In this document: positions 1,338 to 7,894 of the stretch, in pieces | Position numbering within the stretch: position 1 is the stretch's first letter | Layout: the number at the start of each line of letters is the position of its first letter | NCBI GenBank assembly: GCA_015661865.1 | Contig: DQVG01000067.1 | Span: 1 to 7,894, forward strand | DNA: 7,894 nt | Direction of reading: 5' to 3' | DNA from: Desulfurobacteriaceae bacterium | GTDB taxonomy: Bacteria; Aquificota; Aquificia; Desulfurobacteriales; DQVG01 | The notes under the pieces: generated by a model | Database searches by the model: none | The model's input: the letters and a program-made list of their open reading frames with translations, nothing else | Told to the model about the DNA's origin: nothing | Program-made: the position numbers and the translations under genes

Positions 1338-1861
1338 TCAGAAATTCCCCCTAAAAATTTTTGGGCATATTTTAAAACTAAGCTCTCTATTTGAGGAAAA
1401 GTTTCTTTTAATTCCTTGGATATATCTGTTCCTGCAGAAATATCTTTAACTTGAATACCTATTAAAACGCAATCTTTTGGAGATTTACCTTTTATCTCCA
1501 GAAGTTGAATAATCTCAGAAAATTGAACTTCATGAGGGGATAATTTTAAAGGTAAACGATTGCTTAGTATATCTTCTTTTGAAAATACCTTTATATCTCC
1601 AGGTTTACCATTTTTTATGTTAGCAGCATCAATAACTATTAAGTAGGGAATTCCTTCTAGATAAGGTAAAAAATTTAAACCTAACGTTCCTCCTTCCATT
1701 AAAGAAACTTTTTTGCAGAGTTTATATTTTTTCTGAAAATATTTTAAAAAATGAATTCCCACACCTTCATCTTTTAGAAGATAATTCCCTATTCCTAAAA
1801 TCAAAAGTTCGGGTTTTCTTTGAAGAAAATCCAAATCATTTTCAAAAAAAGATTTATCCAT
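1316..1861 (-). CDS. [NiFe]-hydrogenase maturation endopeptidase (HyaD/HybD family)
   Basis: This 181-residue protein belongs to the peptidase M52 family. These enzymes clip the C-terminal extension from the hydrogenase large subunit after nickel insertion, in the cytoplasm. Visible hallmarks are GIGNYLLKDEGVGI (residues 23-36), EGGTLGLNFLPYLEG (56-70), VIDAA (76-80) and SPHEVQFSEIIQLLEIKGKSP (108-128, in two halves). The three nickel-sensing residues known from HybD map to E32, D78 and H110, so it should be active. The HEVQFSE and GGTLGLNLLPYLEG style is closest to HyaD-type proteases of group 1 membrane-bound uptake hydrogenases. Its ATG overlaps the purE stop by 8 bp and AAAGG lies just upstream. 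No hydrogenase structural genes are present; the only other hydrogenase gene here is hypC at 6568-6870. Confidence 0.9.
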   Translation of the reverse strand: MDKSFFENDLDFLQRKPELLILGIGNYLLKDEGVGIHFLKYFQKKYKLCKKVSLMEGGTLGLNFLPYLEGIPYLIVIDAANIKNGKPGDIKVFSKEDILSNRLPLKLSPHEVQFSEIIQLLEIKGKSPKDCVLIGIQVKDISAGTDISKELKETFPQIESLVLKYAQKFLGGISECFQKNY

Positions 1862-2327
1862 TTAAAACCTTTTGTTTCATTTTTTCTCTTTCTTGCTTTA
1901 AAAGTTCCCTTAATTTTGGATACTTTAAGGCCATAATTTCAATGGCTAAGTAAGCTGCGTTTTTTGCTCCTGCTTTACCTATAGTTACTGTTGCTACAGG
2001 AATTCCTGAAGGCATTTGAACAATTGAAAGAAGAGAGTCTACTCCTTTTAAATCCGAAGAAGGTATTGGAATTCCTATAACTGGTAAAAGAGTATAAGCT
2101 GCAATAACACCAGGTAAATGAGCTGCATACCCTGCAGCAGCTATTATAACTTCAAATTCCTCTTCGGCATACTTTGCAAATTTAGCAGTTTCTTCCGGAG
2201 TTCTATGAGCAGATAAGATTTTGATTTCATAAGGAATTCCAAATTTTTCAAAAACTTCCTTAGCCCCTTCAATGTATTCTAGATCACTTTTAGAACCCAA
2301 AACAATTGCAACTTTTTTCATAGCCAT
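1854..2327 (-). CDS. purE: 5-(carboxyamino)imidazole ribonucleotide mutase, PurE
   Basis: PurE is the catalytic protein of the carboxylation step in purine synthesis, converting N5-CAIR to CAIR; class I forms work with PurK. From the chosen start it has 157 residues, the usual class I length. Motifs are KKVAIVLGSKSDLE at the N-terminus, the active-site SAHRTPE, AAGYAAHLPGV, and GVDSLLSIVQMPSGIPVATVTIG. The consensus GAGGAAHLPG reads AAAGYAAHLPG here. An in-frame extension to a TTG at 2438 exists but is rejected. That codon overlaps the predicted -35 hexamer and lies upstream of the predicted transcription start, and the added residues are unlike PurE. ATG 2327 has AGAGGTG about 6 nt upstream; ATG 2321 is the alternative. 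It is the first gene of a four-gene operon. Confidence 0.95.
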   Translation of the reverse strand: MAMKKVAIVLGSKSDLEYIEGAKEVFEKFGIPYEIKILSAHRTPEETAKFAKYAEEEFEVIIAAAGYAAHLPGVIAAYTLLPVIGIPIPSSDLKGVDSLLSIVQMPSGIPVATVTIGKAGAKNAAYLAIEIMALKYPKLRELLKQEREKMKQKVLNG

Positions 2328-2340
2328 GAAACACACCTCT

Positions 2341-2403
2341 AAGTAAATTTCAATTAGCCCGTCACGCCCGAAAGCGGCTCTGCTTCTCCCCACCGGCCCT
2401 TTC
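2341..2403 (-). promoter_or_regulatory. GC-rich 5' leader of the purE operon
   Basis: This is the predicted untranslated leader between the purE promoter and its ribosome-binding site. Positions 2357-2399 contain 32 G or C of 43 in a region that is otherwise about three-quarters A+T. Read as minus-strand RNA it can form small stems, for example CCG-CUUU-CGG, and AGCC pairing with GGCU further on. It contains the shared 14-mer (2387-2400). It may be a structured regulatory leader or a protein-binding site. I could not match it to a known riboswitch class. Confidence 0.45.
2387..2400 (+). repeat. GC-rich 14-mer, left copy (TCCCCACCGGCCCT)
   Basis: It matches the copy at 3099-3112 in 13 of 14 positions. 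It lies at about +3 to +16 of the predicted purE promoter, in reverse orientation relative to that transcript. Its CACCGG core suggests a protein-binding site rather than a coding feature. Confidence 0.6.
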
Positions 2404-2491: not shown

Positions 2492-2744
2492 TTATCCACA
2501 TTGGGTGTGGAAAAGTCAGTTTCTATATGTGGATAACTTCTTATTGAAAATCAATAAATTTTTAACTTTTTCCACATTGCAATGTGGAAATGTGGAAAAG
2601 TTTTCCACATTTTATTGTGGAAAAATTTGAAGAAAAAATTTTTCCACATATCCACAAAAGTTTTCCACATAAGTTATCCACATATATGTGGAAAATTTTC
2701 TTTAAGATTGCCAATAGTTTATCATAGTTATCCACTTTTCCACA
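2492..2744. other. oriC: Putative replication origin oriC: array of 15 DnaA boxes
   Basis: Fifteen 9-mers of the DnaA-box type lie within 253 bp. Perfect TTATCCACA sites are at 2492-2500 (+), 2528-2536 (-) and 2674-2682 (+). TTTTCCACA sites are at 2506 (-), 2568 (+), 2591 (-), 2601 (+), 2616 (-), 2640 (+), 2661 (+), 2687 (-) and 2736 (+). One-off variants are ATTTCCACA at 2583 (-), ATATCCACA at 2648 (+) and TTATCCACT at 2728 (+). Several form head-to-head pairs: 2591-2609 is a 9+1+9 inverted repeat, and CCACATATATGTGG (2678-2691) is a perfect palindrome. An A+T-rich flank follows on the right, and the neighbouring operons diverge from it. A DnaA-titration locus is the main alternative. No dnaA is adjacent. 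Confidence 0.85.
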
Positions 2745-2853
2745 TTCCTAATAACAACAATAATATATACACATACCAGATATAAATAACACTTATTTAC
2801 TTAAGTCTAAAGTTAATTTAGTTCGTTATTAGTTATTGTTGTTATTGTTGTTG
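2745..2853. other. Probable origin-unwinding start: TAA/CAA triplets and inverted repeat
   Basis: Four bases after the last DnaA box (2736-2744), a triplet run TAA TAA CAA CAA TAA begins at 2749. It resembles the DnaA-trio element ([T/A]A[G/A] repeats) that loads DnaA onto single-stranded DNA, although C at the first position departs from the trio consensus. The same string returns inverted. AATAACAACAATAA (2750-2763) is the exact reverse complement of 2833-2846, within two TTATTGTTG 9-bp repeats (2833-2850). The segment has 24 G+C of 109. Confidence 0.5.
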
Positions 2854-2996
2854 TAAAGCTAATTATTATTTATCCGAATACTTTTTTTTTATTTTACTTT
2901 TTACTTAAATTTTTATTTGAAAATCTTTTTAAAAATATTTATCTTCAAATAGAAATTTTTTATTTTAATATAAAATCAAACATTTCAAAACTTTAC
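2854..2996. other. Extremely A+T-rich tract, candidate DNA-unwinding element
   Basis: Only 18 of 143 bases are G or C. It holds no plausible gene. Its place beside the DnaA-box array fits a duplex-unwinding element that melts when DnaA assembles. The role is inferred from composition and position alone. Confidence 0.45.
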
Positions 2997-3063
2997 TTGT
3001 ATGCTAAGAAATTCTTGAATTTTTTAAAATTTTTTGAGTTTTTTGATAACAACTTTTTTAAAC

Positions 3064-3091
3064 TTGAAAATCTAAAAAAACATGCTAAAAT
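3064..3091 (+). promoter_or_regulatory. Predicted sigma70 promoter of bioB-folC
   Basis: TTGAAA (3064-3069) and TAAAAT (3086-3091) are 16 bp apart, the same hexamers as the purE promoter on the opposite strand. The start of transcription would be near 3098, immediately before the GC-rich 14-mer and about 30 nt before the TTG at 3127. No BirA-type operator was seen. Confidence 0.45.
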
Positions 3092-3098
3092 ATTCTTA

Positions 3099-3112
3099 TC
3101 CCCACCGGTCCT
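3099..3112 (+). repeat. GC-rich 14-mer, right copy (TCCCCACCGGTCCT)
   Basis: It differs from 2387-2400 by one base. It lies at about +1 to +14 of the predicted bioB promoter, inside an otherwise A+T-rich stretch. The core ACCGGT is a 6-bp palindrome, consistent with binding of a dimeric regulator. Confidence 0.6.
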
Positions 3113-3126
3113 AAAAAACTTGATTT

Positions 3127-4107
3127 TTGACAAAATTTTGCAGTTTATGGAAATTGGAGGTTTTAGAAAAATTTTTTGACAAAGGTTTTAAATTTGAAAA
3201 TTTAACCATAAAGGAATTTGCAAAAACTTTAACTCCTTTAGAATTTGGAAGTTTTATAAAAAATGCTCAGTTAAAACGTAAGGAGTTTTTTAAAGATTTT
3301 TTGCATTCTTGCGCAATTTTAAGTATAAAAACTGGAAATTGTAAAGGGGATTGTAAATTTTGCTCCCAATCCAAACTTAGCAAAGCTAAAATCAATCCCC
3401 ATGATATTTTGAATTGGGAAAAAGTTAAATCCGCTTTGAGCTGGGCCTCTCAAAATAGCATAAAACATTTTTCTTTTGTAACTTCCGGGATTAGACCATC
3501 TAAAGAAGAGATAAAAAAAATATCTGTCTTGATTGAAAAAGCAAAAATCTATTTTCCAGATCTTAAAATTTGCGCATCTTTGGGTATCTTAACTAAAGAA
3601 GAGCTAAAATTTTTGAAAGATTCTGGTTTAGATAGATATCATAATAACTTGGAAACTTCAAAAAGAATTTATAAATATATTTCTAGTTTACCTTGGGACA
3701 AAAAATTAGAAACTATATTAAATGCAAAGGAAATAGGTTTAAAAGTATGTAGTGGAGGAATTTTTGGATTGGGAGAAAGTTTAAAAGATGCTTTGGAACT
3801 TTTAGAAACGGTAAAAGATATTGCTGATGGAGTTCCTGTTAATTTTCTTGTACCTATAAAAGGGACACCTTTTGAAAATAAATCTCCTTTAACTTTAAAA
3901 GAAGGTCTTATTTATTTATCTTTATTTAGACTTTATCTTCCTTATAAAAATTTTATAATGTGTGGGGGAAGACAAGTTGTGTTTGAAAAAGAAAATTATT
4001 TACTTTCTACCATAGTTTCTGGAATTATGTTTGGAAATTACTTAACCACTCAAGGAAAACCTTTGTCAGAAGATGAAATTTTATTTTCTCTTTATAAATG
4101 TGTTTAA
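3127..4107 (+). CDS. bioB: Biotin synthase, BioB (radical SAM)
   Basis: BioB inserts sulfur into dethiobiotin to make biotin, the last step of the pathway. The radical-SAM cluster motif is CKGDCKFC (C72, C76, C79). Other family motifs are KICASLGIL (C149), YHNNLETS (171-178), KVCSGGIFGLGES (C208), PVNFLVPIKGTPFE and GNYLTTQGKPL near the end. With 326 residues it has normal length. The second-cluster cysteine that is C97 in E. coli BioB aligns with S116 here (HFSFVTSG), while an extra cysteine appears at C279 (MCGGR), just before the conserved R282. The start is uncertain. TTG 3127 and TTG 3154 are in frame but lack a good ribosome-binding site. GGAGG at 3156-3160 is followed by no in-frame start, and an ATG at 3147 is out of frame. 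folC follows directly. Confidence 0.92.
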   Translation: MTKFCSLWKLEVLEKFFDKGFKFENLTIKEFAKTLTPLEFGSFIKNAQLKRKEFFKDFLHSCAILSIKTGNCKGDCKFCSQSKLSKAKINPHDILNWEKVKSALSWASQNSIKHFSFVTSGIRPSKEEIKKISVLIEKAKIYFPDLKICASLGILTKEELKFLKDSGLDRYHNNLETSKRIYKYISSLPWDKKLETILNAKEIGLKVCSGGIFGLGESLKDALELLETVKDIADGVPVNFLVPIKGTPFENKSPLTLKEGLIYLSLFRLYLPYKNFIMCGGRQVVFEKENYLLSTIVSGIMFGNYLTTQGKPLSEDEILFSLYKCV

Positions 4108-5619: not shown

Positions 5620-6414
5620 ATGGAAGGTTTTAAATATAAGGAACCTATAAAGGGTTATGAGTTAGAATTTAAACTTATTCCTATTAATGAAATTCATATC
5701 CCTCCCTTTCAAAGAGATCCATCTGAAAGTCTTATAAAAAAACTTATTTTATCTATGGAAAAAATAGGATATATCCATCCTATTATTGTTTATGAAGATG
5801 AAGGAAAAACTTTTGTAATAGATGGTCAACATAGACTTATTGCAGCTAAAGAATTGGGAGTAGATGTAATTCCCGTTATTTATATTCCAAAAGAATTAGT
5901 ATATAACCTTATGGAATTTAATACCGAAAAACCCCCAAATGTAAAGGAAAAAAGTGCTCAAGTTTATAGACTTTATAGAAAATTTGTAGAAGATAGACCT
6001 GATATGGAAGAAAGTGAACTATCTTTCTATGTAGATGAACCTCAATATATTACATTTGGTTTTATTATTGAGGAAATAAACAAAAGATTTCCGGCTTCTC
6101 TTTTTAATAACTTTATAAAAAAGGTAGATGAATTCTTAAGTTTAAAACTTGAAGATGCCCAAGAAGAAAGAAGAAGAAGAGCAAAAGCATTGTATGAACT
6201 TTATGAAAAAGTTAATGAAGTTTACAATCGTTTAGGATTTACAAATGCTCTTTTAAAAGGTGAAATTTTAAGAAAGGCAATCCAAAAAGTATATGGTAAA
6301 AATGTAAGAAAAATAGAAGATGATTACTATACTGCTATTAAAAAAGTAAAAGAAGCTTTAGATTCTTTAACGGATGAAGAACTTGCAGGAATAGAAGATA
6401 ATATTAACTTTTAA
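5620..6414 (+). CDS. ParB/Spo0J N-terminal-domain protein
   Basis: This 264-residue cytoplasmic protein has a ParB-type N-terminal domain (about 15-100). It contains FKLIPINEIHIPPFQRDPSESLIKKLILSMEKIGYIHPIIVYED, then the nucleotide/DNA-contact motif DGQHRLIAAKELG (68-80), the counterpart of the GERRYRA box of classic ParB. The remaining part (about 105-264) is helical and charged, with a QEERRRRAKALYELYEKVNEVY coil at about 181-202. It does not show the familiar ParB helix-turn-helix plus dimer domain, so canonical centromere binding should not be assumed. Standing about 3 kb from the putative origin, it may act in chromosome segregation or transcription control. It has its own strong ribosome-binding site and terminator, so it is probably a single-gene unit. 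No ParA and no parS site were seen. Confidence 0.78.
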   Translation: MEGFKYKEPIKGYELEFKLIPINEIHIPPFQRDPSESLIKKLILSMEKIGYIHPIIVYEDEGKTFVIDGQHRLIAAKELGVDVIPVIYIPKELVYNLMEFNTEKPPNVKEKSAQVYRLYRKFVEDRPDMEESELSFYVDEPQYITFGFIIEEINKRFPASLFNNFIKKVDEFLSLKLEDAQEERRRRAKALYELYEKVNEVYNRLGFTNALLKGEILRKAIQKVYGKNVRKIEDDYYTAIKKVKEALDSLTDEELAGIEDNINF

Positions 6415-6567: not shown

Positions 6568-6870
6568 CTATTTTTTATCTTCATTAGAAAAACTTTTTTT
6601 ATACTCTTTCATTAAAGTATCCATATCTACTGTAGGAGTCTGCTCTTCTAAAGCAGCTTCTATTTCTTCATAAGCTTTCCAAATTTCCTTAAATTCTTCC
6701 TCAGATATTTTTTGAATAGCATAACCTACATGAACTAAGACATAATCTCCTTCTTTTAACTCTTTTTCAGGAATTAAATTTACTCCTATTTCCCTTTTTA
6801 CACCCTTAGCTTCAGCAATTGCAAGAGGATAATCTAATTTAATTATTTTCATAGGTACGGCAATGCACAT
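6568..6870 (-). CDS. hypC: Hydrogenase maturation chaperone HypC
   Basis: HypC works with HypD to assemble and carry the Fe(CN)2CO unit and deliver it to the hydrogenase large subunit. The N-terminus MCIAVPMKI carries the essential Cys2, exposed after removal of Met1. The OB-like core ends in GDYVLVHVGYAIQKI (41-55). It has 100 residues, somewhat longer than most HypC, because of an acidic/basic helical tail after about residue 75. AAGGAG lies 8 nt before the ATG. It follows proS by 36 bp on the same strand, so it is probably read from the same transcript. hypD, hypE and hypA are not in the window. Confidence 0.95.
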   Translation of the reverse strand: MCIAVPMKIIKLDYPLAIAEAKGVKREIGVNLIPEKELKEGDYVLVHVGYAIQKISEEEFKEIWKAYEEIEAALEEQTPTVDMDTLMKEYKKSFSNEDKK

Positions 6871-6906
6871 GTTTTTAGCTCCTTATTTAGTTTTAGATTT
6901 ATAATT

Positions 6907-7894
6907 TTATATTTTCTTTTTTTCTTTACTATTAATTATATTATTAATATATTCAAAAATATCTTTTAAATCAACTTCTATCTTTTCTTGAGTTTTTCTT
7001 ATTTTAACTTCTACTTTGTTATCTTTAATTTTCTTTCCAACTATAATTTGAATGGGTATTCCAATTAAATCTGCATCTTTGAATTTAAAACCGGCTCTAA
7101 CCTCACTTCTATCATCATAAAGAACTTCGTAATTTTTTTCTTTTAATTTTTTATATAACATCTCACTTGTTTTAAGTTGATCCTCATCTTTTGGATTTAC
7201 ACAGATAAGGTGAATTTGATAAGGAGATATAGATATGGGCCAAATAATTCCATCTTTATCATGAGATTGCTCTACGGATGCTGCCATTATACGACTTATC
7301 CCTATCCCATAACATCCCATAATAATATACTTTTCTTTTCCATCTTTATCTATGAAGGTAGCGTTCATAGCCTTAGAGTATCTATCTCCAAGCATAAAGA
7401 TATGGCCAACTTCTATACCTTTATAAAAATCAATTTTAGAAAGACACTCGGGACACCTTTCCCAATCTTTTCCTTGAGCTTCCGAAATATCTAAGATAGT
7501 ATCAAGTTTATAATCTCTAAACATAACCAAATTTTTAAAGTGATAATCCTTTTTATTTGCTCCAAAACAAAGGACTTTTTTAGAAAGAAGGGAAATATCC
7601 CCTACTATAAGCCCATTTTTTTCTCTTAATTTTTCTAAAGTTTCTTTACTTAAAATGGGTCCAATATAACCTTTAACAAGGTTTAGTTCCTTTAATAAAT
7701 TTTCATCTCCTAATCTAATTTCATTTGCTTTAAAGGCTTTTTTTAATTTTATTTCATTAACCTCATAATCCCCCCTTAAAAAAATTAAAATAGGTCTTCC
7801 ATCGACTACATAAACCATAGCCTTGGCCGTATCCTCTTTGGAAAGATTTAAAAAGCTTGCTACATCTTCTATAGTTTCTTTACTAGGAGTATAA
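6907..7894 (-). CDS. proS: Prolyl-tRNA synthetase, C-terminal part (runs off right edge)
   Basis: ProRS charges tRNA-Pro with proline. The frame is open to the window edge, so the ATG at 7818 is internal and not the start. The codons beyond it read TPSKETIEDVASFLNLSKEDT, typical of the YbaK-like editing insertion of bacterial-type ProRS. About 328 of a usual 570 residues are visible. In order they are the end of the insertion domain, CPECLSKIDFYKGIEVGHIFMLG, class II motif 3 at GCYGIGISRIMAA, and WPISISPYQI. The anticodon-binding domain follows, with YDDRSEVRAGFKFKDADLIGIPIQIIVGKK (in two overlapping blocks), ending in KEKKKI. The last complete codon toward the edge starts at 7893. It lies upstream of hypC in the same direction. 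Confidence 0.95.
   Translation of the reverse strand, partial: YTPSKETIEDVASFLNLSKEDTAKAMVYVVDGRPILIFLRGDYEVNEIKLKKAFKANEIRLGDENLLKELNLVKGYIGPILSKETLEKLREKNGLIVGDISLLSKKVLCFGANKKDYHFKNLVMFRDYKLDTILDISEAQGKDWERCPECLSKIDFYKGIEVGHIFMLGDRYSKAMNATFIDKDGKEKYIIMGCYGIGISRIMAASVEQSHDKDGIIWPISISPYQIHLICVNPKDEDQLKTSEMLYKKLKEKNYEVLYDDRSEVRAGFKFKDADLIGIPIQIIVGKKIKDNKVEVKIRKTQEKIEVDLKDIFEYINNIINSKEKKKI

Follow-up and report, generated by a model that had tools for sequence, protein, structure and literature searches.

Within the 7894-base stretch of DNA analysed here (the window; contig C86 of G000, an assembly of 871 kb in 160 contigs that is 64% complete), the purE-bioB spacer is in all likelihood the chromosomal origin, oriC, where DnaA is predicted to bind to an array of 15 boxes and to open an adjacent element of 116 bp. 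A likely origin had been proposed at this site in a first-pass annotation, and we now hold that reading with high confidence, since a second genome of the genus keeps both the array and its flanking tracts, shows no rival box cluster in exact-pattern scans and has no array beside its dnaA. In the mechanism that we envisage, DnaA would fill the boxes of the array, a co-oriented pair at 2728/2736 would hand the DnaA oligomer to the nearer (left) of two inverted TTA/TTG tracts, the region between these tracts would open, and DnaA would keep hold of the exposed strands during helicase loading. A likely origin has thus been located for an uncultured Aquificota lineage.

The box array in the purE-bioB spacer

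The spacer spans about 800 bp, from the start of purE (2333, minus strand) to the frame of bioB (from 3127, plus strand). Its left neighbor, purE (AIR carboxylase; 1854..2333, minus strand; PF00731, E 2.5e-61), is preceded, from left to right, by an ORF without a Pfam family, a DUF507 gene and a gene for a hydrogenase-maturation protease; its right neighbor, a bioB-like gene with radical SAM and BATS domains (3127..4107, plus strand; PF04055 and PF06968; exact start codon uncertain), is followed by a 444-aa ORF without a Pfam match, a ParB_N/GmrSD_N ORF, hypC and a proS fragment. The flanking operons had been described as running outward on both sides, which is true of the nearer genes but not of hypC and proS (6568-7893), both of which point toward the array.

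The array occupies 2492..2744 and carries boxes in both orientations: three perfect TTATCCACA sites, nine copies of TTTTCCACA, two other one-mismatch sites (ATATCCACA at 2648 and TTATCCACT at 2728) and one two-mismatch site at 2583. Four convergent pairs lie within it (2492/2506, 2568/2583, 2601/2616 and 2674/2687), and its right end is formed by a co-oriented, overlapping pair, TTATCCACT and TTTTCCACA (2728..2744, plus strand), that adjoins the predicted unwinding element. Our recount against TTATCCACA (14 9-mers with at most one mismatch and 15 with at most two, in 253 bp) agrees with the 15 DnaA-type 9-mers, three of them perfect, that were first reported, and the density is indeed beyond chance: 14 of the 16 sites at up to one mismatch in the whole window fall in the array, while the best 253-bp stretch in 60 first-order (Markov) resampled sequences held two boxes at most. 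Reading the array as an RNA element was rejected, the Rfam matches being sub-threshold (best E 0.051, with none of eight above the gathering score).

For the genus, one further genome was compared, Aquificota bacterium MAG 4571-419 (G001, 95% complete), so that genus-level conservation here means one pairwise comparison. There, on contig C3 (NCBI record JAMOTM010000003; L001), the order of purE, array and bioB is kept, with proteins that are 93% (purE) and 66% (bioB) identical, and the array has its counterpart at L001:9272-9531. Comparison of the purE-bioB spacer in related genomes had been suggested as a check, and this genome retains the array together with its flanking tracts. The first seven and the last four boxes match those of the window in orientation and, to within two bases, in spacing (start to start, 14, 22, 40, 15, 8, 10 ... 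13, 41, 8 in the window and 13, 21, 41, 13, 8, 10 ... 14, 40, 8 in G001), and the middle part of the array differs. The co-oriented pair recurs, again 8 bp apart, at L001:9515-9531.

Exact matches to TTWTCCACA number 43 in G000, 12 of them in the array and 31 outside (against 28 for the reversed-pattern control), and 70 in G001, where the array accounts for 10 and 60 lie outside (against 56); the counts outside are near the control in both genomes, and the excess of exact boxes is therefore the array itself. Direct TCCACA triplets (four in G000, five in G001) all lie within the purE-bioB array, and the controls gave none. Scans with these two patterns found no rival cluster in the 95% complete G001, although, as exact-pattern scans of both genomes, they would overlook clustered boxes at another site if these were more degenerate. 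Three exact TTWTCCACA sites fall within 350 bp of one another at just one further place in G001 (C72:16924, 16935 and 17248), inside a single ORF, L087:2775-3320.

Two of the alternatives can be weighed on these grounds. Lying between two divergently transcribed genes, the array could be a DnaA-responsive promoter region that ties the expression of purE and bioB to the cell cycle, with no origin involved; however, regulatory sites are expected to hold far fewer boxes than 15 over 253 bp, and a genome must have an origin, for which the exact-pattern scans of G001 offered no other candidate, so we regard this as highly improbable. We would assign a similarly slim chance to the array being one of at least two chromosomal origins, or a secondary one: a second array might lie in the missing parts of G000 or in the unseen 5% or so of G001, but none was found by the exact patterns in the seen parts of either genome, and it is rare for a bacterial chromosome to have several DnaA origins.

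Further features of the neighborhood may be recorded here. A direct repeat around ACCGG[CT]CC brackets the spacer in both genomes, in one orientation, as ACCGGCCC on the left (2392..2399, plus strand; counterpart L001:9184) and ACCGGTCC on the right (3104..3111, plus strand; counterpart L001:9807), and by eye the copies are more alike within a genome than between genomes. As a genome-wide repeat, ACCGGYCC was rejected, since all 15 of the other sites in G000 and G001 fall in open frames of at least 140 codons and are likely coding; open frames, of 70 to 195 codons, run through the four spacer sites too, and the two groups are not told apart by frame length alone. In the purE leader, the G+C-rich CCCGTCACGCCC (2358-2369) is identical in G001 though the rest of the leader drifts, and Rfam gave no match at this site. 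The ORF at 5620-6414, 2.9 kb from the array, encodes a ParB_N/GmrSD_N-like protein, with both domains just under the curated cut-offs; its counterpart in G001 is cut where contig C3 ends, and no further match extends the right flank there. The hypC gene of the window (6568-6870) had no match in the 95% complete G001.

Inverted tracts and a predicted unwinding element

The 116 bp next to the array (2745..2860; counterpart L001:9532-9645) likely serve as the DNA unwinding element and are bounded by two inverted trinucleotide tracts. The left tract (2749..2763, minus strand) reads TTA/TTG on the minus strand, hence TAA/CAA on the plus strand, and begins 4 bp past the last box; the right tract (2833..2853, plus strand) reads TTA/TTG on the plus strand and CAA/TAA on the minus strand and begins 88 bp past it. 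Both distances are unchanged in G001 although the sequence between the tracts has been altered, with bases gained or lost, and the co-oriented pair at 2728/2736 with its 4-bp gap to the tract is likewise the same there.

The pattern TTRTTRTTGTTRTT, which covers all four tracts, has four matches in G000, three of them in the spacer, and three in G001, all in the spacer (overlaps counted); the reversed control gave three matches in each genome as well, on the same tracts. With the spacer modelled as a second-order random sequence, none of 4000 runs gave the tract on both strands. Among 24 arrays (two from the genus, 11 from the sister family f2 and 11 from families f3 and f4), only the two of the genus have TTA/TTG runs of at least three units on both strands within 200 bp of the boxes. 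TAG/TAA-type trios are absent from the strand that runs 3' to 5' away from the boxes, where the left tract reads TTA/TTG and the right tract, at 88 bp, CAA/TAA.

Because the tracts are inverted relative to each other, the top strand folds back on itself: as single-stranded DNA, 2745-2860 folds better than all of 200 shuffles, and its counterpart in G001 better than 199 of 200. This fold-back belongs to single-stranded DNA, and may also occur in the duplex.

Base composition alone says little about this element, since its G+C content is 22.4% against 25.5% for the window. A very A+T-rich tract had been noted beside the array, and one is present in the rest of the spacer (2861..3095; 14.5% G+C, weakly conserved in the alignment of the two genomes), but the segment that directly adjoins the boxes is near the window average.

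A more tentative proposal, which we would sooner doubt than accept, is that the origin is two-sided, the inverted TTA/TTG tracts putting the same single-strand docking motif on opposite strands at the two ends of the element. In that case both strands might be held by DnaA, or the two tracts might form a cruciform that starts the melting; either way the element could provide a symmetric platform for loading two helicases, taking the place of the sister family's TAG trio. This would be a specific and testable variation on the way in which DnaA opens DNA.

Separation from dnaA, GC skew and the wider class

In G001, dnaA lies on contig C17, 80 bp downstream of a gene of the inositol-monophosphatase family, and is followed after 2 bp by a permease-domain ORF. 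No array accompanies dnaA there: across the 16.8 kb read, there were no more than two boxes (at up to one mismatch) per 300 bp. Its dnaN is on a third contig, C55. The same kind of genes stand upstream of dnaA in G000, where only 43 bp separate the end of the gene from that of the contig, so that the site downstream of dnaA is unreadable there; dnaN was not found in this 64% complete genome. The DNA-binding domain of DnaA (domain IV, PF08299) is encoded on both contigs (G000:C106, E 2.5e-27; G001:C17, E 8.2e-27), and the G001 protein can be aligned with the DnaA of 8btg through that domain.

The sister family (f2, which may be Desulfurobacteriaceae) is arranged differently. Among its 22 sampled genomes, 19 had a dnaA match (three had none) and 11 dnaA loci were read; in all 11, dnaA is followed by 10-12 boxes and then by dnaN, and in at least five further genomes (G003, G006 and G017 not counted) box triplets lie no more than about 240 bp from the dnaA match. 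A run of at least three TAG/TAA units follows the boxes on the DnaA-trio strand in seven of the 11 loci (mirrored in loci read backwards), with only looser triplets in the other four, and in two of the seven (L012 and L015) the opposite strand has a second TAG/TAA run where dnaN begins. From this arrangement we infer that a dnaA-oriC-dnaN cluster was dispersed along the lineage leading to the genus, with oriC ending up between purE and bioB, and dnaA and dnaN at other sites; this suggests that the cluster came apart within one order.

The same separation lends itself to another explanation, namely that the array is a datA- or DARS-like site, which regulates initiation by titrating or reactivating DnaA, with the true oriC elsewhere, and the skew, discussed below, does not single out the array either. 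However, no other cluster was found by the exact patterns in G001, the space after dnaA is closed in that genome (the next ORF begins 2 bp on), and tracts conserved at fixed distances would be needless in a titration site; we therefore consider this explanation improbable, if somewhat less so than the two weighed above, and retain the array as the likely origin.

GC skew does not decide the position of the origin. A search for the minimum of the skew had been proposed as a check, and it did not prove usable: raw skew, sampled as 20 pieces of 20 kb each in three relatives (G002, G060 and G052), is noisy and without a clean minimum, and purine- and pyrimidine-rich segments are described as alternating in Aquificae, where skew is known not to track the replichores, in the available part of one survey (PMC4070872). 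In G002, raw skew is negative in the three pieces to the left of the dnaA-dnaN origin and +0.057, +0.194 and -0.050 to the right, with alternating signs elsewhere; in G060 (about 120-167 kb) its sign changes 20-47 kb or so to the left of the array, positive values giving way to negative ones, whereas an origin should show the opposite order; and in G052 no sign change occurs at the array. To the left and right of the array it is -0.19 and -0.03 in the window and -0.02 and +0.08 on G001:C3, and gene orientation could explain the lower values on the left.

Corrected for orientation at fourfold sites, the skew of G002 is -0.21, -0.19 and -0.22 on the left and +0.06, +0.21 and +0.10 on the right, with +0.52 (33 minus-strand sites) in a piece at 1.35 Mb; the G060 and G052 arrays show no clear switch. 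In the genus, plus-strand genes give -0.51 (53 sites) on the left on G001:C3 and -0.29 (34) and 0.00 (24) on the right, and minus-strand genes -0.01 (67) and -0.16 (31) on the left and +0.33 (21) on the right. One-sided Fisher tests of these comparisons, chosen post hoc and with counts rebuilt from rounded skews, give p of about 0.046 and 0.080. The corrected skew in the genus thus leans weakly, and over few sites, in the direction expected of an origin.

The setting had been called unusual, and so it is by the standard of the sister family (dnaA, boxes, dnaN), but not by that of two other families, f3 and f4, in which 11 arrays are detached from dnaA. Of 37 genomes sampled there, 17 dnaA loci were read over about 1.5 kb on each side, and none has a box cluster beside dnaA. 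The 11 arrays (four in f4 and seven in f3, of 6-15 boxes each; L135-L145, from G060, G045, G054, G050, G025, G027, G058, G041, G052, G059 and G039) lie off the dnaA contig or at least 41 kb from dnaA; they come from 14 candidate stretches, three of which (G026, G043 and G048, with 2, 2 and 4 boxes) were left out as no arrays. Their neighbors vary between genera (for example, secA with a class-III aminotransferase, a sigma-54 regulator, ubiD or pyrG); within genera, G050 and G054, of one genus, have the same setting, and three members of genus g9 share part of theirs. The window proteins had no match at E 1e-6 among the 150 ORFs of the 14 stretches, and the purE-bioB setting is therefore not common to them.

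These detached arrays are likely origins of other class members, and ones that seem to move; origins away from dnaA look common in this class. Taken with the array of the genus, the 11 arrays in two families suggest that Aquificota origins move often, which makes the phylum well suited to testing if it matters where oriC lies with respect to dnaA. An oriC in another gene context is described for many bacteria, including E. coli, in the part of PMC4285127 available.

Comparison with known origins

No Aquificota origin of this kind was found among the top-ranked matches in the open-licence literature. The accessible portion of PMC7203096 has nothing on oriC or dnaA, and that of PMC4227106 mentions rearrangements in Aquificales but no origin. 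Predicted origins, with Aquificae among the species, are compared with DoriC in the part of PMC4070872 at hand, and DoriC therefore probably holds predicted origins of cultured Aquificae. What would be new here is the relocated setting in the purE-bioB spacer and, provided that it operates in the way proposed, the two-sided unwinding element.

The closest comparison is with the oriC of the sister family, which has the same box consensus in mixed orientations (10-12 boxes in about 155-200 bp) and, in seven of 11 loci, a trinucleotide tract after the array. It differs in lying between dnaA and dnaN rather than between purE and bioB, in having boxes that are mostly TTATCCACA rather than mostly TTTTCCACA, and in its tracts, which are TAG/TAA and lie 63-70 bp past the last box in six of the seven loci and 25 bp past it in the seventh, where the genus has inverted TTA/TTG at 4 and 88 bp. 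The right tract stands roughly where the sister family has its trio, but reads CAA/TAA on that strand.

In Bacillus subtilis, box-bound DnaA loads an oligomer onto adjacent single-strand TAG-type trios, according to the portions available of PMC6669920 and PMC10721633. The co-oriented box pair a few bp from a trinucleotide tract resembles this basal unwinding system, whereas the strand expected to carry TAG-type trios reads TTA/TTG here, which is nearer to the motif of Escherichia coli. The E. coli oriC has TTGT/TTATT single-strand motifs in its unwinding element (PMC10316083, in part); it too lies away from dnaA and has TTATT/TTGTT-like motifs, but those of the genus are in tandem, on both strands and inverted. 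Finally, the same excerpt of PMC10316083 has the TAG repeats of Thermotoga maritima aided by a TTATT motif; that oriC is likewise a thermophile origin with a box array, a TTATT motif and trinucleotide repeats, although its box consensus differs and its TAG repeats number three.
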